The position numbers and the translations under genes are program-made. Shown in pieces: positions 1 through 8,580 of a stretch of DNA of 64,000 nt. Source of the DNA: Bacteroidales bacterium (GTDB lineage: Bacteria > Bacteroidota > Bacteroidia > Bacteroidales > F082). Every line of letters starts with the position of its first letter. Position 1 is the stretch's first letter. The notes beneath the pieces are model-generated. The model worked only from the letters and a program-made list of their open reading frames with translations, did no database searches and was not told the DNA's origin. The DNA is taken from contig JAUYGX010000117.1 of the NCBI GenBank assembly GCA_030690365.1, positions 1 to 64,000 on the forward strand. The letters run 5' to 3'.

Positions 1-191
1 ATATCTTTGAAAGTTATAATCTCATCTTAAAAAAGAATAATCCAGAAAATGCACCCAAACTTAAATTTTCACACAGCCTGTGAATTCCGGGGATACAATA
101 TCGGCCATACCTGACGGTATTGGGAAATTACCATGATACTCACCAATAAAAGGACAGATAGTTTAAAGTATTAACTTTAAATTTAAATAGT

Positions 192-272
192 ATGTCAACA
201 GCGAGAAGAAAATTCAGCAAGGAATTCGGTACTCCCCAATCCTTGGATAGATTTGAGGAATATCCTAGTTGA
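192..272 (+). pseudogene. Possible IS3-family OrfA N-terminal remnant
   Basis: A 26-codon frame opens with MSTARRKFSKEF, which resembles the basic N-terminus of IS3-family OrfA transposases (usual pattern R-R-K-F-x-x-E-F-K), but the likeness ends after about 12 residues and the frame stops at 270. No OrfB and no terminal inverted repeats are visible nearby. It is most simply a decayed insertion-sequence end next to other mobile debris. The match is short, so chance similarity is possible. Confidence 0.3.
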
Positions 273-298
273 AGAGTTGAAAACTAAAAGAAACCAAC

Positions 299-340
299 AT
301 GAGAACTAAGAGATTTGTGTTATGTATTTCTATTTTCTGC
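299..340 (+). pseudogene. 5' remnant of an outer-membrane/secreted protein gene
   Basis: ATG at 299 begins a signal-peptide-like stretch (MRTKRFVLCISIF) that runs straight into the left REP palindrome at 343 and then into unrelated sequence. I infer that this is the start of a gene whose body was lost when the REP/RAYT cassette arrived; a plausible C-terminus of an outer-membrane beta-barrel lies just beyond the right REP. That the two pieces belonged to one gene is inference. Confidence 0.3.
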
Positions 341-342
341 AT

Positions 343-374
343 CCCCGCTCCCGCCAGTTTGCAACTGGTGGGTC
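343..374 (+). repeat. Left REP palindrome of the RAYT cassette
   Basis: A 32-nt element that is the exact reverse complement of 1061-1092. It is itself a hairpin: CCCGCCAGTT and AACTGGTGGG pair around a TGC loop with one G-T wobble, next to a GC-rich tail. This is the structure expected of a REP unit processed by its cognate RAYT transposase. Confidence 0.8.
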
Positions 375-461
375 TTGTCTTTCTTATTCAATATAAATTT
401 GAGTTATGAATTGCCATGACAAAGAAAGTTTATACCTTTAAACTTTTACAATCAATAATAA

Positions 462-1013
462 ATGAGTCGAGCATACAAGATGACCGATCCGGAAGGACTT
501 TACTTTATCACTTTTTCCACAGTAGAATGGGTAGATGTTTTTACACGTCAGGAGTATCGTGACATATTGATCGATAGCCTGGATTTCTGCATAAAGGATA
601 AGGGGCTGCGCTTGTTTGCCTATGTGATTATGTCGAATCATCTGCATTTAATCGTAGCCGCAGAATTTGGATTTGAACTGAGTGGCATTATTCGTGACTT
701 TAAAAAGTTTACCGCCAAGAAAATACTGAAAGCAATTGAGGACAATACTGGTGAATCACGGAAAGAATGGATGATTTCATTGTTTAGGAAAGCCGGGGAA
801 GGTAATGCGAATAATAAAGTATATCAGTTTTGGCAGCAGGATAGCCATCCGATTGTGTTGTATTCCAATGCTGTAATTGACCAGAAACTGGATTATATTC
901 ATCAAAACCCGGTAGAAGCAGGCATAGTGTTACAGCCAGAGGATTATCTGTACAGTAGTGCAAGGAATTATGCCGGGCTTGATTATATTATTCATGTTGA
1001 ATTGCTTTTTTGA
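462..1013 (+). CDS. REP-associated tyrosine transposase (IS200-like, RAYT)
   Basis: 183 residues. The IS200/Y1 fold is indicated by the HUH metal-binding motif SNHLHLI (His60 and His62) and the downstream DYIHQNPVEAGIV and YLYSSARNY blocks that typify Bacteroidota RAYT proteins. RAYTs are single-copy, domesticated relatives of IS200 transposases that nick and join single-stranded REP hairpins. Here the gene is bracketed by two perfectly inverted REPs (343-374 and 1061-1092), so gene and substrate form one cassette. The ATG at 462 follows a short AT-rich leader; no clear Shine-Dalgarno sequence is seen, as is usual in this phylum. The frame is intact, so the protein may be active. Confidence 0.9.
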   Translation: MSRAYKMTDPEGLYFITFSTVEWVDVFTRQEYRDILIDSLDFCIKDKGLRLFAYVIMSNHLHLIVAAEFGFELSGIIRDFKKFTAKKILKAIEDNTGESRKEWMISLFRKAGEGNANNKVYQFWQQDSHPIVLYSNAVIDQKLDYIHQNPVEAGIVLQPEDYLYSSARNYAGLDYIIHVELLF

Positions 1014-1060
1014 AAAACGATATGCTTTTGAACCATACTGAATATTGTTCTTATATGTCT

Positions 1061-1092
1061 GACCCACCAGTTGCAAACTGGCGGGAGCGGGG
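1061..1092 (-). repeat. Right REP palindrome of the RAYT cassette
   Basis: Exact reverse complement of 343-374, lying 47 bp after the RAYT stop codon. Having both REPs at 32/32 identity suggests recent insertion or ongoing maintenance by the transposase. Confidence 0.8.
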
Positions 1093-1094
1093 GG

Positions 1095-1232
1095 ATGGGC
1101 ATTAAAATTCCCATGCTGAAACATGAGTTCCTGGTCCTAACAGAATATAAATATGGTATAAATTCCGTTTACAATGATATGGATTCAATTTATAACCGGT
1201 ATTATAGGCTTTCAATTGGATATAGTTTTTAG
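1095..1232 (+). pseudogene. C-terminal remnant of an outer-membrane beta-barrel protein
   Basis: Immediately after the right REP an open frame reads GMGIKIP..HEFLVLTEYKYG..SVYND..SIYNRYYRLSIGYSF and ends at TAG (1230-1232). Alternating aromatic and polar residues, and a final strand ending in Phe, are typical of the last strands of Bacteroidota outer-membrane barrels. There is no upstream portion, signal peptide or start context, so this is a 3' stump. The broken gene's N-terminus may be the piece at 299-340. Confidence 0.5.
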
Positions 1233-1269
1233 TTTAATAAGTTACTCGTTTTTATATAAATCTTAATTT

Positions 1270-1923
1270 ATGAATTCCTTAAAACAAGTCTTTTTCCTGA
1301 CAATCTTAGTTTTTTTTATCACCTCCTGCAATAAAAACAATCTGGAAGCCACATACGAAATCACCCCGGAGGAACAACAATACATTCCCTTTACCGGAGG
1401 TGAAAAAGTGGTTTATATAAACTCTGGCAGCGCAGCGGAGTTGGTATTAACAGCAACTCCCATGATTAACAAATTACTTGAATCACCTTCAGGAGTCAAC
1501 ACAAATAAGTATTTCAGGTACGAAACCAGCCAGCTTGTTTTATCAGGATCCGGTATTGACCTGGAATATAATTTAAGTGCGATTCACAAGAAATATCATG
1601 ATAAAACCAAGCTTGTTCTATACTGGCAAACGGGCATTGAAGATTTTCCTGCGCTTATTATTGGTGGGTTTGATGTCCCCATTGATTCTGCCGACAGGTT
1701 CTATAAACTGGTTTTTTATGATAGTCTGATGGTTCATCAGCACTTATATCAAGATGTATACCGTGGAGATTTTCGTTTAAGCTACTCGCCAGGTGATACA
1801 ACCCCTGTTCCGGTTGGTTCGGTTTTTCCGGTCAATTTCTATTTTTCCCTGCCCACTGGCATTATAAAATTTGATTTGTCCGATAGTACCAGTTGGGAAC
1901 TGGACCGAATTGAGAAAAAATAA
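1270..1923 (+). CDS. Hypothetical lipoprotein with DUF1735-like look
   Basis: 217 residues. The N-terminus is a lipoprotein signal peptide: a hydrophobic stretch followed by the lipobox ITSC, with Cys20 as the predicted lipidated residue. The mature protein begins with a segment containing YEITPEEQQYIPFTGGEKVVYINSG, broken here only for description, and is rich in beta-type sequence with no recognisable catalytic motif. The phrase of the form 'xxF.GGEKV.Y.N..G' resembles the start of small Bacteroidota surface lipoproteins, but I do not recognise a named family with confidence. It starts 37 bp after the barrel remnant and is read in the same direction, so it may once have shared its operon. 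Function unknown; envelope location is the only safe inference. Confidence 0.75.
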   Translation: MNSLKQVFFLTILVFFITSCNKNNLEATYEITPEEQQYIPFTGGEKVVYINSGSAAELVLTATPMINKLLESPSGVNTNKYFRYETSQLVLSGSGIDLEYNLSAIHKKYHDKTKLVLYWQTGIEDFPALIIGGFDVPIDSADRFYKLVFYDSLMVHQHLYQDVYRGDFRLSYSPGDTTPVPVGSVFPVNFYFSLPTGIIKFDLSDSTSWELDRIEKK

Positions 1924-2089
1924 CTGCTTTACTCCATATTATTTGGTGGGTAAGTTAGTCTGGAATGTACTGATATTTATCAACTATTGTTAATATCCCT
2001 TGTGCATAACATGTGCATACTCTCACCTTAAAATAGCTTGACTTTATTTTATCGGGGTGGTATCTTTGAACCAGCAAGTCAAAATAACT

Positions 2090-2401
2090 GCTGTTGCTGC
2101 GTGGGAAACCCAATGAAGAATGACGTAAGTCAACCGACAAAAAGGTAAGCCCGAAGTTCTTTAAATAGAGCATAGTCGTCGGCGAAAGCCTGACAGACTC
2201 ACACCACAGGACTCCGCAAGGAACTGAAAAATGGTTGGCAGCCAACACCGGGAGGAAAAGACGGAGCAATCCATCAACCCCAAATCCCGGAATCAGAAAG
2301 ATGGCTCTCTACGGAGGATCGTCCAGATGAAAGCAGCGAAGATAGCTAGCCACAAGCAAAAAGGCTACGGCCAATTTGCAAGTGAACAGGGAATGTGTTG
2401 A
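2090..2401 (+). ncRNA. Probable group II intron 5' remnant with truncated maturase start
   Basis: No intact gene lies between 1924 and 2422. From about 2090 the sequence has a structured-RNA look: GTAAGTCAACCGA, GGTAAGCCCGAAG, tetraloop-like GCGAAAGC at 2173-2190 region and CCGCAAGG at 2214-2221 region, then ATG at 2231. The 56-codon frame 2231-2401 (MVGSQHREEKTEQSINPKSR at its start) looks like the head of an intron-encoded protein cut short. Bacterial group II introns have this order: domain I RNA, then a reverse transcriptase ORF. Domains V and VI and the RT body are missing. This is pattern recognition without an alignment, so another structured RNA or mobile remnant is possible. Confidence 0.35.
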
Positions 2402-2424
2402 ATAAACAGGTTCCCTGTTTTTTT
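2385..2424 (+). terminator. Stem-loop terminator, probably bidirectional
   Basis: AACAGGGAA (2385-2393) pairs with TTCCCTGTT (2411-2419), followed by a T run to 2424. It sits at the 3' end of the leftward epimerase gene and could stop transcription from both sides. Confidence 0.6.
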
Positions 2425-3337
2425 ATGGGTGTTTTACAAGCAAATCTTCCAACGCCGCTTTTAATTCAGCAAACGAAAATTGAAATCCGGTCTGTAAAAC
2501 TTTGTTTGCCGAAACTGCTGATCCTTCCAATACCAGGGCCGACATCTCACCCATAAAAAGTTTCATGATAGATCCGGGTACGGCGGGCAGAAAATAAGGA
2601 CGGTGCAGTACACTGGCAATCATTTTCATCAGCTCACCATTGGTATTTTGGGCAAGTGCCACCGCATTGTAAACTCCGTCCGGGAGATTTTGTTCCAGTC
2701 CGGCAACAATAAGGTTACATAAATCGTGAATGTGTATCCAGGGGACAAACTGCCGTCCGGTTCCCAAAGCAGCACCAAACCCGTACCTGACGGGCAAAGC
2801 CATTTTAGGCAAAGCCCCTTCTTTTGCATCCAGTACCATCCCCAGCCGATACTGGATGGTTTTGATTCTCAGATCTCTGAATTTATTGGTTGCTTCTTCC
2901 CAAAGTTGGGTAGTGGTGGCCAGGAAATCTGTACCTGGCGGGTCGGTTTCGGTAAAAATATGTGAACTCGTGGTAGTTCCATAATAGCCAATGGCGGAAG
3001 CTGCAATCACTACTTCTGGCAGTTTACCACTTCTTTTAAGTTGACTGATAATCAGTTCGGTTGATTTCACCCTGCTGTCCACAATTTCCTGTTTACGTTT
3101 GGCCGACCATGGTTTATCTGCAATACCCGCTCCCGCCAGGTGAACGATGGCGTCGGAAAATTCGATGGCCGCCGGGTTGAGCTTTTCTGCTTCAATATCC
3201 CAAAAGTAGGTTTTGATGGACAAACCTTTATCAGGATTTCTGGAAAGCCAGGCCACTTGATATCCTCTTTGGGTGAGCAAGGCAGTGAGGTGCTTGCCAA
3301 CTAATCCGCTTCCTCCGGTAATCAGTATATTTTTCAT
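2423..3337 (-). CDS. TIGR01777-family NAD(P)-dependent epimerase/oxidoreductase
   Basis: 304 residues, the usual length of the YfcH/SulA-like family. The Rossmann nucleotide-binding motif ITGGSGLVGKHL lies at residues 5-16, followed by a family-typical HLAGAGIADKPW segment, the VDSRVKST block, and a C-terminal domain containing GFQFSFAELKAALEDLL. The family is an atypical extended short-chain dehydrogenase group with unknown physiological substrate. Its ATG (3335-3337) lies 3 bp after the stop codon of the MarR-type regulator, so both are one transcript from the 4.0-kb promoter. A role controlled by, or serving, the regulator's signal is possible but not shown. Confidence 0.85.
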   Translation of the reverse strand: MKNILITGGSGLVGKHLTALLTQRGYQVAWLSRNPDKGLSIKTYFWDIEAEKLNPAAIEFSDAIVHLAGAGIADKPWSAKRKQEIVDSRVKSTELIISQLKRSGKLPEVVIAASAIGYYGTTTSSHIFTETDPPGTDFLATTTQLWEEATNKFRDLRIKTIQYRLGMVLDAKEGALPKMALPVRYGFGAALGTGRQFVPWIHIHDLCNLIVAGLEQNLPDGVYNAVALAQNTNGELMKMIASVLHRPYFLPAVPGSIMKLFMGEMSALVLEGSAVSANKVLQTGFQFSFAELKAALEDLLVKHP

Positions 3338-3340
3338 GGT

Positions 3341-4003
3341 CTAGTTATTCATGTATCTGTCCAGCAATAAGTTAATATCCGATGTTTTATCACTTTGGTG
3401 AATGTGCCAGTGAAAAGCACTCAGTTTCTCCATGACCTGTGTGGCCTGTATTAGCTCTTCATCCGACAGGTTTCCCCGGATGATTCTCGCTGCCTTGTAC
3501 ATTTCATAAAATGCAGCAATGATGGTTTCTCTTCCTTTTGAAGTCAACTCCAACCGCTTGGAACGTTTGTCGTTTACATCGGCATATTCCCGGATCAATT
3601 CTGAGCGAATCAGCCGCCTTAAGACTTCTGTTCCCGAAGATATTTCCATCAACTGTAGGTTGATCAGCTCCGATTTTAGCAGGCCAGGAGTTTTGATCAG
3701 CGATGCCAGCAACCCAAATTCTTCCAGGGTTTTTATTCCGGTCGTGCCCAACGCTTTTTTTACATAATGCCTTCCAAACCGGTATAATTCGGTTAACAAT
3801 GTAGAAAACACCACATCAGGAAACCGCTCGGGCAGATGGTTTTCAGCCATGGAAAAATCCGGTATAGAGTTACTGACGGGTGATTCGGATAGCAATTCCC
3901 TTTTGAGGTAATTGGAAAAATCCGTGAGGTTGTTCCCTTTTTGTTCCGATTCAAATTTCTCCAGATAAGGAAGCAACTTCTTCAACAATTGATAATCGCT
4001 CAT
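3341..4003 (-). CDS. MarR-family transcriptional regulator
   Basis: 220 residues, longer than a standard MarR (about 145) because of an N-terminal extension of about 70 residues (LLKKLLPYLEKFESEQ...). The winged-helix core covers roughly residues 80-190: a recognition helix near GTEVLRRLIRSELI, then the wing DKRSKRLELTSKGRE, a hallmark of the family. It is divergent from the TonB-dependent receptor gene at 4119, and two near-palindromes of 19 bp lie in the shared 115-bp promoter region. The family normally represses itself and its divergent neighbour until a small ligand binds; that behaviour is inferred here. Confidence 0.85.
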   Translation of the reverse strand: MSDYQLLKKLLPYLEKFESEQKGNNLTDFSNYLKRELLSESPVSNSIPDFSMAENHLPERFPDVVFSTLLTELYRFGRHYVKKALGTTGIKTLEEFGLLASLIKTPGLLKSELINLQLMEISSGTEVLRRLIRSELIREYADVNDKRSKRLELTSKGRETIIAAFYEMYKAARIIRGNLSDEELIQATQVMEKLSAFHWHIHQSDKTSDINLLLDRYMNN

Positions 4004-4019
4004 GGGATCAATTTTTTTA

Positions 4020-4027
4020 CAAAACTA
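4020..4027 (-). promoter_or_regulatory. Promoter -7 element for the MarR/epimerase operon
   Basis: TAGTTTTG on the minus strand matches the Bacteroidota housekeeping -7 consensus TAnnTTTG and lies 17-24 bp before the MarR start codon. No clear -33 element was identified, because the upstream DNA is an AT-rich palindrome. Confidence 0.5.
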
Positions 4028-4038
4028 AGCAAATAATA

Positions 4039-4089
4039 CAAATATATAATATATTTGCAAATTATTATACAAATACATATTATATATTT
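4039..4089. promoter_or_regulatory. Twin AT-rich palindromes, candidate MarR operators
   Basis: CAAATATATAATATATTTG (4039-4057) is a near-perfect 19-bp palindrome. AAATACATATTATATATTT (4071-4089) is a weaker second one. Their centres are 32 bp apart, about three helical turns, so two dimers would lie on the same face. They sit between the divergent regulator and TonB receptor genes and next to the regulator's -7 box, as expected of operator sites. Confidence 0.5.
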
Positions 4090-4118
4090 CTACGATTTTT
4101 GACTCAAAATACTATCCA

Positions 4119-6539
4119 ATGACTGCAGGAATCATTTATAATAAGATCAAGACTGACAATTTATCCATAATTTCTTTGATATTCATCCTCTTGTTTGGTT
4201 TTTCTTCCTCGCTGGTGACGGCTCAAACCGGAACTATTTCTGGGCGTATCATCGACAAGGTAACCAACGCTCCCATTGCATTTGCCAATGTGATTGTGGA
4301 CGATACCCCACTGGGAAGCACCACCGACATCGATGGGAAATTTACCATTACCACAGTACCTGCGGGATATGTACAGCTGGTGTCGACCTATGTGGGTTAC
4401 AAACCTGTCAGAAGCCGCGATATTTTCGTGAGTCCGAAAAAGGAGGCTACGGTGGAGCTTGCAATGGAACCTTCAGAAAACCAACTGGATGAAGTGGTAA
4501 TCAAAGTGGATCCGTTTCAAAAACGAATTGAATCTCCCGTTTCGATGCAAACCATTGGCATCAGGGAAATTGAAACCAATCCCGGTAGCAACCGTGATAT
4601 TTCGCGTGTAATACAATCTTTTCCCGGAGTGGGTTCTAGGCCCAATTTTCGCAACGACATTATTGTGCGTGGTGGCGGTCCCGGCGAAAGCCGCTTTTTT
4701 CTGGACGGCGTAGAAATTCCCGTGCTCAATCACTTTGCAACTCAGGGCGCTTCCGGAGGTCCGGTAGGGATTATCAATGCTGATTTTATTTCTCAGGTAG
4801 AATATTATTCGGGAGCTTTTCCTGCCTCGGACTACAATGCATTGAGCGGAGTCTTTGAGTTTACCCAAAAGGATGGAAATTCAAATCACCTGTTTGGGCA
4901 GGTGGCGTTGGGTGCCAGTGAGACATCGCTTACGCTTGAAGGGCCGGTTGGCAACAAGGCAACCTATCTGTTTTCGGTTCGGCGATCGTATCTTCAATTT
5001 TTGTTTTCTGCCATCGGATTGCCTTTTTTGCCCACTTACAACGATTACCAATTTAAAACAAAGATCCGCTTTAACACCCGCAATGAGCTTACCATCATCA
5101 GTTTGGGGTCACTTGACAAACTGAAACTCAATACCGGAATAAAAAATCCTGATGCTTCCCAGGAATTTATTCTCACAGAACTTCCGGTAAACAATCAGTG
5201 GAGCTATACCATTGGGGCCGTGTATAAACATTTTATGAAAAACGGCTATCAGCAGTTAGTGGTGAGCAGAAATAAGCTGAATAATCAGTTTGAGAAATAT
5301 CCCGAAAACAACGAAAGCCTGCCAAAAACATTCGACTACCAATCCAATGAAACCGAAAACAAAATCCGCTACGAATATCACCTTCAAAATCATGGTGTAA
5401 AATATAGTTACGGCATCAGTGGCGAATATGCCAGTTATGATAACCAAACCTACCAGGCCATCTATTTAAATGATTCCCTAACAGAAATCAATTATCAAAC
5501 CAACATCAACTTCTTTAAATATGGTGCTTACGGGCAGGTATCAAAACCATTTTTTAAGGAAAGGCTGAATCTTTCGCTGGGTATCAGGGTAGATGTCAAT
5601 ACTTTTTCCACGGCCATGAACAATCCCTTCGATCAGCTTTCGCCCCGGTTTTCTGCTTCTTTTCTGCTTATGGATGGTGTTACCCTCAACGCCAGTGTGG
5701 GCAGATATTATCAACTACCGGCTTACACCACCCTTGGTTATGCCAACAATATGGATGCATTGGTAAATAAAAATACCACCTATATTGGTGTTAATCATTA
5801 CATAGCAGGTTTTGAACATCTTGTAAACGAACACATTATGTGGTCGGCCGAAGGATTTTTTAAGGATTATTTTCACTATCCCATCGATTTGAATACGGGT
5901 GCCAGCGTGGCCAATACCGGAGCCGAATACAGCAGCGTAGCCGGAGCCGTTCCTGTAATATCCATCGGTAAAGGGCAAGCCTATGGTTTTGAGCTGTTAA
6001 ACAGGATGAAATACAATAAATTTACATTTATTGGATCGTTTACCTATGTAAGAAGTTTGTTTACCGATTTAAAGGGAGAATTCATCCCTTCTTCGTGGGA
6101 CAGCCGCTACCTGTTTACCTTAACGGGAACCAAAGATTTTAAACGAAACTGGAGTTTGGGTGCAAAATGGCGTTTTGTGGGTGGATTGCCTTATACACCC
6201 TATGATTTGCAAACCTCCGCCAATATACAGGCCTGGGATGCGAAGGGTGGTCCCTACCTGGACTATAATCAGTTAAATGCGAAGCGGGCCAATGCGTTTC
6301 AACAGCTGGATATCAGGGTGGACAAGAAGTATTTTTATAACAAATGGACGCTGATGTTTTACCTTGACATTCAAAATCTGTACAATTTCCAGAATGAAGG
6401 ACAGCCTTATATCATTCGGGAGAAAAATGCGGATGGCAGTTTTAGTACCATCAACAATGGTCAGGATTACGTACTCGAAAGCATTCCAAATACTTCGGGC
6501 ACAGTGTTGCCAACTATTGGTATCATGGTGAAATTTTAA
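4119..6539 (+). CDS. TonB-dependent receptor with carboxypeptidase-regulatory-like domain
   Basis: 806 residues, outer membrane. A signal peptide ends near residue 36 (LVTAQ). A carboxypeptidase-D regulatory-like beta-sandwich covers about 37-125 (TISGRIIDKVTNAPIAFANV). The plug domain follows (RDISRVIQSFPGV, then DIIVRGGGPGESRFFLDGVE at about residues 180-205), and a 22-strand-type barrel occupies the rest, ending in PTIGIMVKF with a terminal Phe. It lacks a SusD partner gene, so it is not a canonical SusCD glycan system; a metal-chelate or other small-molecule receptor fits as well. It is transcribed divergently from a MarR-type regulator and probably controlled by it. The substrate cannot be read from sequence. 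Confidence 0.9.
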   Translation: MTAGIIYNKIKTDNLSIISLIFILLFGFSSSLVTAQTGTISGRIIDKVTNAPIAFANVIVDDTPLGSTTDIDGKFTITTVPAGYVQLVSTYVGYKPVRSRDIFVSPKKEATVELAMEPSENQLDEVVIKVDPFQKRIESPVSMQTIGIREIETNPGSNRDISRVIQSFPGVGSRPNFRNDIIVRGGGPGESRFFLDGVEIPVLNHFATQGASGGPVGIINADFISQVEYYSGAFPASDYNALSGVFEFTQKDGNSNHLFGQVALGASETSLTLEGPVGNKATYLFSVRRSYLQFLFSAIGLPFLPTYNDYQFKTKIRFNTRNELTIISLGSLDKLKLNTGIKNPDASQEFILTELPVNNQWSYTIGAVYKHFMKNGYQQLVVSRNKLNNQFEKYPENNESLPKTFDYQSNETENKIRYEYHLQNHGVKYSYGISGEYASYDNQTYQAIYLNDSLTEINYQTNINFFKYGAYGQVSKPFFKERLNLSLGIRVDVNTFSTAMNNPFDQLSPRFSASFLLMDGVTLNASVGRYYQLPAYTTLGYANNMDALVNKNTTYIGVNHYIAGFEHLVNEHIMWSAEGFFKDYFHYPIDLNTGASVANTGAEYSSVAGAVPVISIGKGQAYGFELLNRMKYNKFTFIGSFTYVRSLFTDLKGEFIPSSWDSRYLFTLTGTKDFKRNWSLGAKWRFVGGLPYTPYDLQTSANIQAWDAKGGPYLDYNQLNAKRANAFQQLDIRVDKKYFYNKWTLMFYLDIQNLYNFQNEGQPYIIREKNADGSFSTINNGQDYVLESIPNTSGTVLPTIGIMVKF

Positions 6540-6639
6540 CAGGGAGATTGATCATCATTTTCTCCTGACAAAGTGAGGTGTGTTTATTGAGGTTGTTTGA
6601 ACGCATAACAAATCATATTACACCAGAGGGATTTATGGT

Positions 6640-6647
6640 TAATTTTG
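6640..6647 (+). promoter_or_regulatory. Promoter -7 element for the M48 peptidase gene
   Basis: TAATTTTG matches the TAnnTTTG -7 consensus and lies 58 bp before the start codon, in the 166-bp gap after the TonB receptor gene. Confidence 0.45.
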
Positions 6648-6705
6648 CAATCACAGTTCTAGGTGATTTAATACCTACTTTTCAAATAAACTAAAACTCA
6701 ATGTC

Positions 6706-7566
6706 ATGAAGACAACCCTTTTACTCAAAGTCATGCTGGTACTTTTTCTTTTCTCATGCAGTACTGTGCCCCTCACAGGCCGTAAACAACTCAATATGAT
6801 TCCCGGAGATCAAATCATGTCCATGAGTTTTCAGCAATACAGCGATTTTTTAAAACAAAATCCACCGGTTATAGGAACAAAGGATGCCCTGATGGTGAAA
6901 ACCGTTGGCCGGAATATTGAGTCAGCAGTTGAAAAATACCTGGCAGACAATAAATTATCCTCTCTGTTAGATGGATACCAATGGGAGTTTAACCTGGTAA
7001 ACGATAAAGCGATCAACGCCTGGTGTATGCCCGGAGGTAAAGTGGTGGTGTACAGCGGCATTCTTCCGATTACCCGGAACGAGACTGGGTTGGCAGTGGT
7101 GATGGGACACGAAATTGCCCACGCGATTGCAGAACACGGTAATGAGCGCATGAGCCAGGAATTACTGCGATCGGCAGGATCGGTTGGTTTGGAAGTGGCA
7201 TTGAATGATCAGCCCGAGGAAACCAAAAATATTTGGTTGATGGCCTACGGTGCAGGAACTGAAGTGGCCGCTATTTTGCCCTATAGCCGTTTGCACGAAA
7301 GCGAAGCCGATCACCTGGGACTCATTTTTATGGCCATGGCCGGTTACAATCCTGAAGAATCAGTGGCCTTTTGGCAACGCATGAGTGCCGCCGGCAACGG
7401 CCAGAAACCACCTGAATTTCTCAGTACCCATCCATCGGATCAAACCCGAATCGACAACCTCAATAAATGGATGCCCGAAGCTATGAAATACTATAGCGGC
7501 AAAAAATCTTCGAACCAAAATAAAAGTCTTAATGGGAAAACCATTAAAATTGGTGGCAGACCATAA
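6706..7566 (+). CDS. M48-family zinc metallopeptidase lipoprotein
   Basis: 286 residues. Lipoprotein signal with Cys18 (FLFSCST) as lipidation site. The peptidase motif HEIAHAIAEH gives zinc ligands His135 and His139 with catalytic Glu136, and the ESEADHLG segment about 65 residues later supplies the third ligand. This is the periplasmic BepA/LoiP/Oma1-like branch of M48, whose members degrade misassembled outer-membrane proteins. An ATG at 6701 is followed at once by a stop, so 6706 is the start. The C-terminus is a short basic tail. It is a stand-alone gene, convergent with the next one. Confidence 0.9.
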   Translation: MKTTLLLKVMLVLFLFSCSTVPLTGRKQLNMIPGDQIMSMSFQQYSDFLKQNPPVIGTKDALMVKTVGRNIESAVEKYLADNKLSSLLDGYQWEFNLVNDKAINAWCMPGGKVVVYSGILPITRNETGLAVVMGHEIAHAIAEHGNERMSQELLRSAGSVGLEVALNDQPEETKNIWLMAYGAGTEVAAILPYSRLHESEADHLGLIFMAMAGYNPEESVAFWQRMSAAGNGQKPPEFLSTHPSDQTRIDNLNKWMPEAMKYYSGKKSSNQNKSLNGKTIKIGGRP

Positions 7567-7575
7567 AACGTTTTA

Positions 7576-8580
7576 CTAAAAATCAAAGGTAAATCCAATG
7601 CCCGGATATACTTTCTGGAAGTCGTTTTCGAAATACAAAAACGGTTTTACATGAATCCTCATTATAGGATTCACGATGAGCCCGATCCGATAGGTATCTG
7701 TTTTAGTATCGAAGAAGTTGGTCTTTTTATTGGTTAAAAACCCGGCTTCTAACCCATACCATCTGGGTTTATCAGGATTTTCAGAGAAATTATGGGAATA
7801 ACCCAGGCTCAGAAAATTATTGATGGTAAAGCTACTGTTGGTGGTGAAAATATAATTCATCTCATCGGTCAGGAAGATCTTATGTTTTATTCTGCCACGA
7901 CTTCCCAGACTGATTCCAAGGGTAAAATCCAGGTTTACCATTCCGGTATTTTTAATCAGGGCAGCACCCATTCCCGCTGATAATTCTATCTTATCCATGC
8001 ATTTAGTTGAGGTGATTTCGTCTCGTGCGGAACTTTCCTCTTGATCATTAATATCATAATACCAGTTTTTTGCATATCGTGATGGCTTGCGTATCTTTTG
8101 TAGCGCCTGATCAACATAGGAAGTAATTATGGGATTGGTGAGTTCATTGAGATTTGTAAAATAGATCAGGATTTTTGTGGAGACCTGTTTTTCATGAACC
8201 GAAGAGGCTACGAGGGGTGAAAGCTCACATACATTCCTGGCGGGAGTCTGGATTAATGCGTGATTTTCGAATGTAAATATCTGTCGGCTTGTGAGGCTAT
8301 CCACCTTGAGATAGTTGTCTTGTAACCAATAAAGATGATAGGAGTTTTGCTTCTTTATGTGGGATTTGATGGAGCTAAATTCTTTTTGGAATTGAAGGAT
8401 CAATGAATCTGCCTGCTTGTTTTCAAGAAGACCGGGTAAATTGTGGTCGGTTACTTTAATCAGAAGTGTGGACGAAATTTTCACCACCAGGGTATCGTTC
8501 ACCTGTCCTTGCACGTTCTGAGTCAGCCATAATGCAGCAGTAAGAAGGATCATTATTTTAAAGAGCGTAAATTTTTTCAT
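7576..8580 (-). CDS. Hypothetical secreted protein, probable outer-membrane barrel C-terminus
   Basis: 334 residues. A Sec signal peptide of about 25 residues (MKKFTLFKIMILLTAALWL, ending VQGQ) is clear. The first half is mixed alpha/beta without recognised motifs and includes a KIRKPSRYAKNWYYDINDQEE segment broken across helices. The second half (from about residue 195, IELSAGMGAALIKNTG) alternates hydrophobic and polar residues and ends in GIGFTFDF, as in an outer-membrane beta-barrel of about eight strands. I do not recognise the family. Its stop lies 9 bp from the stop of the convergent M48 gene. Confidence 0.75.
   Translation of the reverse strand: MKKFTLFKIMILLTAALWLTQNVQGQVNDTLVVKISSTLLIKVTDHNLPGLLENKQADSLILQFQKEFSSIKSHIKKQNSYHLYWLQDNYLKVDSLTSRQIFTFENHALIQTPARNVCELSPLVASSVHEKQVSTKILIYFTNLNELTNPIITSYVDQALQKIRKPSRYAKNWYYDINDQEESSARDEITSTKCMDKIELSAGMGAALIKNTGMVNLDFTLGISLGSRGRIKHKIFLTDEMNYIFTTNSSFTINNFLSLGYSHNFSENPDKPRWYGLEAGFLTNKKTNFFDTKTDTYRIGLIVNPIMRIHVKPFLYFENDFQKVYPGIGFTFDF

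Follow-up and report, generated by a model that had tools for sequence, protein, structure and literature searches.

The window analysed in this work, a stretch of 64,000 nucleotides from a Bacteroidales genome, includes near its left end a unit (343-1092) that is, with a probability that we place at roughly 60%, a small transposable element, in which a RAYT gene of the subclass 2.6 type is bordered by inverted REPs that would represent the ends of the element; this unit abuts a truncated gene for an outer-membrane protein (OMP)-like product. Judging from what is known of the family, the HuH tyrosine enzyme would cut and join these ends as single-stranded hairpins. The features of the region are listed in Table 1.

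Table 1. Features of the cassette and its flanks (window positions)
Feature	Position	Strand	Basis or remark
Dispersed repeat at contig start	1..125	.	93-99% matches at nine other places in this genome
5' remnant of an element that we take to be IS3-like, first transposase codons	133..227	+	88% to G015:C10 and G029:C7
Left flank without clear match, contains ATG 299	228..342	+	Short weak matches alone
Left REP / terminal repeat	343..374	+	Exact inverted copy of 1061-1092; folds as a hairpin
Left-end spacer	375..461	+	Retained in the G042 minis (aligned)
RAYT (TnpAREP) gene, 183 aa	462..1013	+	Motifs, profile matches, dN/dS
Right REP / terminal repeat	1061..1092	-	Inverted copy of 343-374
3' remnant of OMP-like gene	1091..1232	+	83.7% to G029/G052, 88.8% to G015; residues 166-214 of 215
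Lipoprotein-like gene, 217 aa	1270..1923	+	Separates the OMP remnant from the conserved DNA that starts at 1970; outside the cassette

Architecture of the cassette

The first-pass annotation had described exact 32-nt inverted REPs around an intact RAYT gene, and this description holds: the two repeats are 100% complementary and the frame between them is open over its 183 codons. The RAYT gene has an inverted REP on each side, the arrangement by which RAYT (TnpAREP) genes are recognized. In an ungapped inverted-repeat test the pair reaches a score of 32, whereas 14 is the highest value reached by shuffled sequences from 77 related loci. When folded as DNA, the left REP forms a hairpin of 10 pairs (z -3.47), and the right REP folds worse (z -1.55). 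The GT[AG]G foot that is canonical in REPs is absent ahead of the left hairpin, where the bases are CCCCGCT; this is no bar to subclass 2.6, given that the structures of that subclass are called atypical in the available part of PMC6006769.

The RAYT protein and its subclass

The protein matches the Pfam family Y1_Tnp (33.3 bits, cut-off 23, E 6.1e-8) and passes the NCBIfam model REP_Tyr_transpos (101.3 bits, cut-off 80), while it stays under the NCBIfam cut-off for IS200 (26.1 vs 55 bits). A sequence search of the PDB with this protein gave no match to E 0.01. The motifs NHLH, WQ and YIHQNP are present at residues 59, 124 and 145, respectively, and comparison with the relatives in two other genomes (G015 and G042) gave a dN/dS of ~0.12-0.19; the transposase is intact and under purifying selection.

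According to PMC6006769, TnpAREP subclass 2.6 is characterized by the motifs NH[LIV]H, WQ and YIH[QN]NP, its hosts are mostly Bacteroidetes, and it corresponds to RAYT group 5 of Bertels et al. 2017 in the mapping given there. The window unit is a RAYT cassette of this known type: it resembles the subclass as described in that paper in its length (183 aa vs a median of 179), its three motifs, the phylum of its host, and the placement of the gene between atypical hairpins of which further copies exist elsewhere in the genome.

From 190 RAYT relatives found in the genome_contigs collection the best 80 were kept (loci L018-L097), and 77 of these 80 had flanks long enough for the inverted-repeat test. 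The best flanking inverted repeat exceeded all 20 shuffles in 68 of the 77 loci, and its score was at least 15 in 61 of the 77 (control maximum 14). In the aligned parts of these best 80 of 190 proteins, NH[LIV]H was present in 69, WQ in 65 and YIH[QN]NP in 28, and for this reason the set must be regarded as broader than the strict subclass 2.6 consensus. In many distant relatives among these loci the flanking repeats retain a loop resembling GTTTG[CT]AAC while the stem arms vary by genome, as expected if the enzyme and its repeat evolve together.

The right flank carries a remnant of an OMP-like gene

It had been proposed that the last strands of a beta-barrel lie directly outside the right REP, and we found that an OMP-like gene is indeed truncated at this point. 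Window positions 1091-1243 align with the 3' end of OMP-like ORFs that are intact in two genomes of the same genus (G029:C41 and G052:C160; 83.7% identity, blastn), and positions 1101-1243 align with contig C8 of G015 (88.8%). In G029 and G052 the gene is whole (215 aa from its ATG), lacks an internal cassette and occupies the syntenic place. The synteny follows from the fact that in G015, G029 and G052 the DNA of window position 1970 onward (92-94% identity) begins 8 bases after the OMP match. The assignment as an OMP comes from a weak NCBIfam match (27.9 bits, cut-off 135) together with the appearance of the C-terminal strands; the intact protein has no Pfam match.

When the intact 215-aa protein was used as the query in five same-genus genomes, that of the window (G000) yielded residues 166-214 at 1080-1226 plus one match at E 0.05, and residues 1-165 are absent from its assembly; in G042 the sole match had E 0.065. 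Relocation of the N-terminal part to another copy of the cassette was ruled out, as it is not found elsewhere in G000. The first-pass annotation had suggested that the middle of the host gene was lost; the missing part is instead the N-terminal three quarters. According to these alignments the window keeps only about the last 50 residues of the OMP-like gene, beginning at the end of the repeat, so that the right end of the cassette abuts a truncated gene. As the end of the repeat and the OMP remnant have a run of G in common, the border between them can be placed only to within a few bases.

The most likely history, in our opinion, is that the cassette entered the OMP-like gene or its neighbourhood, and that the left side would then have been lost or exchanged through a rearrangement that left behind DNA of a repeat and an IS remnant. 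A less probable history, which nonetheless deserves serious attention, is that the cassette arrived at the scar of an earlier break in the gene, caused either by a deletion unconnected with the cassette or by the IS3-like element. The remnant of this element is immediately to the left of the cassette, and in G015 almost the same portion of the OMP gene is missing, in frame and with no cassette, so that the G015 remnant starts ~10 nt from that of the window (in contig C8, L156 2773-2949, the same ORF is MKKLILSAILILI fused in frame to KIPLLKHEF). Against an earlier break, the OMP remnant of the window begins at the end of the repeat, as insertion into the gene predicts.

In the relatives, the sequence ATTA is found at either edge of the OMP stretch that is deleted in G015:C8. 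In G052:C160 another RAYT-like ORF (L157 130-705), with ~59% DNA identity, is located directly upstream of the intact OMP gene; since this ORF is a different one, two distinct RAYT units would have reached the OMP locus.

The lipoprotein-like protein encoded beyond the remnant has relatives in 17 of 119 family genomes at E 0.001 and no Pfam match. The region 1970-2420, located between ORFs of annotated size, is 92-94% conserved in three relatives, and a search of window positions 1-8000, this region included, returned no Rfam family to E 0.1.

The left flank is unrelated to the OMP locus

Other places in the genome, nine in total, match the first 81-125 bases of the repeat at the start of the contig with 93-99% identity. 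Several of these copies are near contig ends, and bases 83-124 are closely repeated in G015:C10. The G015 copy of 133-227 continues into transposase ORFs that begin with MSITRRKFSKEF. For positions 228-342 only short and weak matches were obtained among 172 family genomes.

The first-pass annotation had regarded the signal-peptide-like start at 299 as belonging to the same OMP gene, with one gene spanning the junction. In favour of a single OMP gene into which the cassette was inserted with loss of the middle, the frame at 299 starts with a hydrophobic stretch and the sequence that ends at 1232 is barrel-like. In contrast, the intact gene begins with MKKLILSAILILI and the frame from ATG 299 with MRTKRFVLCISIF, blastn at E 1e-3 aligned no part of positions 1-342 with the OMP loci of G015, G029 and G052, and the assembly lacks the N-terminal part of the gene. 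The absence of a match indicates that the putative signal peptide is not the start of this OMP, and a single gene across the cassette was rejected on the same grounds, as the left flank has no counterpart in the intact genes of G029 and G052. The left flank consists of a repeat, an IS3-like remnant and DNA without match; given that the two flanks prove to be unrelated, the simple insertion story fails, and in its one-gene form it is highly improbable. From the proposal that the cassette broke an OMP gene, what stands is that the cassette adjoins a broken one; the flanks are not the two ends of one gene.

Copies of the cassette in this genome and its relatives

The number of REP copies in the genome, a point raised in the first-pass annotation, was determined with a 25-nt pattern allowing up to 3 mismatches. 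It occurs at 8 places in G000 (two in the window, two in contig C46, and one each in C8, C90, C141 and C4) and the reversed control at none. This REP is therefore not abundant when compared with the usual >100 copies mentioned in the accessible text of PMC2817692. Six of the 8 places (those of the window, C46, C8 and C90) are on units that still have RAYT sequence. The C46 cassette has an internal deletion with both ends present; C90 and C8 carry the left and the right part of a cassette, respectively, each at a contig end; C141 retains ~90 nt of the left end, and C4 barely more than the repeat. At the protein level the RAYT has 9 matches in G000, and only the window copy and one in C24 (50% identical) cover the whole query with an open frame.

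The end of C90 and the start of C8 both fall within a stretch identical to window positions 600-682, and for this reason the contig could have been falsely joined there, inside the cassette, with the left and right flanks coming from different copies. We consider this unlikely. The contig begins just 342 bases to the left of the cassette, which would agree with a false join, but outside the 600-682 stretch the window copy is 86.6% identical to C90 and 94.7% identical to C8. Neither the position of the OMP remnant against the right REP nor the lack of residues 1-165 in the assembly depends on this join.

Along the window contig the identity to G015 and the other same-genus genomes changes from ~87-97% (~1.1-5.4 kb) to mostly 75-83% (8.4-14 kb), and a similar jump is observed in C92; either imported blocks or a mixed assembly would account for it. 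The contigs C46, C8 and C90 are 69-80% identical to relatives, and contamination of the bin by them is not concluded since the window itself is ~75-83% identical over most of 8.4-14 kb.

The cassette DNA has matches at E 1e-20 in 6 of 172 family genomes: near full-length in G000, G015 and G042, and partial in G052, G031 and G054. The same-genus genome G029 has no match at this threshold. In G042 there is one full cassette plus seven partial elements, and five of these seven (two in C9, and one each in C237, C242 and C41) have a common junction that corresponds to window positions 496/1056, which is not present in the partial elements of C133 and C250. These minis are ~190 nt long, carry two inverted REPs and keep the left 153 nt through the RAYT start codon. 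Damage to the left end affects two of these five, the C242 mini and the second one of C9, and the C41 mini, near a contig end, has an altered right end.

Outside the genus, the Bacteroidales loci L027 and L028 share 726 bp with 98.2% identity and are ~47 kb apart on one 1.45-Mb contig. Their flanks do not align in register; the left edge of the shared stretch is the REP, and on the right side the stretch continues beyond the REP, into another hairpin. The pair L059/L061 (99.7% identical, flanks included) looks like one locus twice and was not counted, and the older pairs L060/L075 (89%) and L051/L063 (83-87%) were left out.

Among 72,556 plasmid records, 6 contain a RAYT relative (25-52% identity), which we count in favour of movement, and four of these 6 replicons are larger than 400 kb; the viral_contigs and phages collections gave no relative. 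Carriage by phages was discarded accordingly; one viral contig contains the exact REP pattern with no RAYT, and given that the pattern lies inside a 496-aa ORF the match is taken as chance. The cassette copies of G000:C8 (L160 387-500) and G015:C9 (L206 2863-3165) end near the 3' end of a uvrA-like gene, and these two genes are only 69% identical.

Divergence and flanks of the copies

Comparisons among G000, G015 and G042 showed more than one copy of the cassette with common ends and different flanks, a pattern by which insertion sequences are recognized. The RAYT gene of the window differs from its counterparts by a dS of 0.137 (G015) and 0.240 (G042), with dN values of 0.026 and 0.028, respectively. 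For five of the seven host genes tested dS was at least 1.6: a gene in C46 (1.63-1.97, saturated vs G042), alr (3.05-3.27), uvrA (2.9 to saturated, possibly a paralogue), CorC (2.22) and TPR (1.79). In the high-identity block of the window near the cassette, the dS vs G015 was 0.176 for a YfcH-like gene and 0.494 for an M48 gene; the neighbouring block being as similar, the RAYT value for G015 alone is no proof of independent movement. The value for G042, set against the two host genes that were compared between G042 and G000, argues for spread between species.

A clean empty site was not found for any of five copies (window, C46, G015:C9, C90 and G042:C9), and no target duplication was observed among the copies with both ends. 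The right flank of C46 has a counterpart in G015, G029 and G052; on the contigs concerned, the counterpart of its left 220 bases is found at a distance of ~30 kb. The right flank of G015:C9, from 39 bases past the REP, adjoins another gene in G029 and G052, and its left flank has no match in the other four same-genus genomes. The flank similarity ends 193 bases before the element in C90, and 128-156 bases before it in G042:C9. These comparisons place the window, C46 and G015:C9 cassettes at synteny breaks, which fits insertion followed by rearrangement and also recombination between repeats with no transposition.

The latter possibility, that recombination between repeated cassettes together with the import of DNA blocks reshuffled the flanks, agrees with these three breaks and with a genome made up of blocks of either ~93% or ~78% identity to G015. 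However, it poorly explains why one junction recurs in five minis, each in a different context, or the L027/L028 pair, and we regard it as rather unlikely. Judging from these sequence comparisons, cassettes of this kind, which have been described as immobile, are probably mobile. The first-pass annotation had remarked that such cassettes are thought to be immobile and that the flanks of this one suggest an insertion; the papers do describe them in this way and the copies look mobile, but no clean empty site was found for the insertion itself.

Relation to known systems and implications

The available portions of PMC3116915, PMC8266576, PMC8049555 and PMC6006769 present RAYTs as domesticated transposases that occur in single copy and for which there is no evidence that they are mobile themselves; specifically, the accessible text of PMC8266576 refers to no evidence for mobility of tnpAREP, and that of PMC8049555, citing Bertels et al. 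2017, states that no RAYT genes have been seen on plasmids and that they make no copies of themselves. Horizontal spread of RAYT genes has been proposed (PMC6006769 and PMC3116915, in the parts available). Among the titles and beginnings of abstracts that were searched, which mostly did not cover subscription journals, no report of mobility for subclass 2.6 was found.

The cassette resembles the IS200/IS605 elements in that it has a HuH/Y1 transposase, hairpin ends, and a whole unit that seems to move. In contrast, it has long exact inverted ends, which known members lack according to the available part of PMC2817692, and its RAYT is below the NCBIfam cut-off for IS200. The TIRtrons (TIRYT) also carry a RAYT-like gene between long terminal inverted repeats, as stated in the accessible text of PMC3733652; the repeats of the window cassette differ in being able to form hairpins, and PMC6006769 assigns 20 of 26 TIRYT to subclass 2.1 and none to 2.6. 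The minis of G042, as REPINs and MITEs, are non-autonomous and carry two inverted REPs, but they are few and keep 153 nt of the left end.

On balance we favour the view that the subclass 2.6 cassettes of Bacteroidota are live autonomous transposons that move as a whole within and between species and give rise to minis, and that they would represent a surviving intermediate between the IS200-type elements and the domesticated REP systems. Movement of the cassette as a unit does not appear in the available parts of the cited accounts, which propose horizontal spread of the gene. For the window alone the consequence is modest, the loss of one outer-membrane gene. If the general view is correct, a subclass of Bacteroidota that is mobile as a unit and produces minis would serve as a living model for the transition from an insertion sequence to a REP system, with a chemistry that can be tested.
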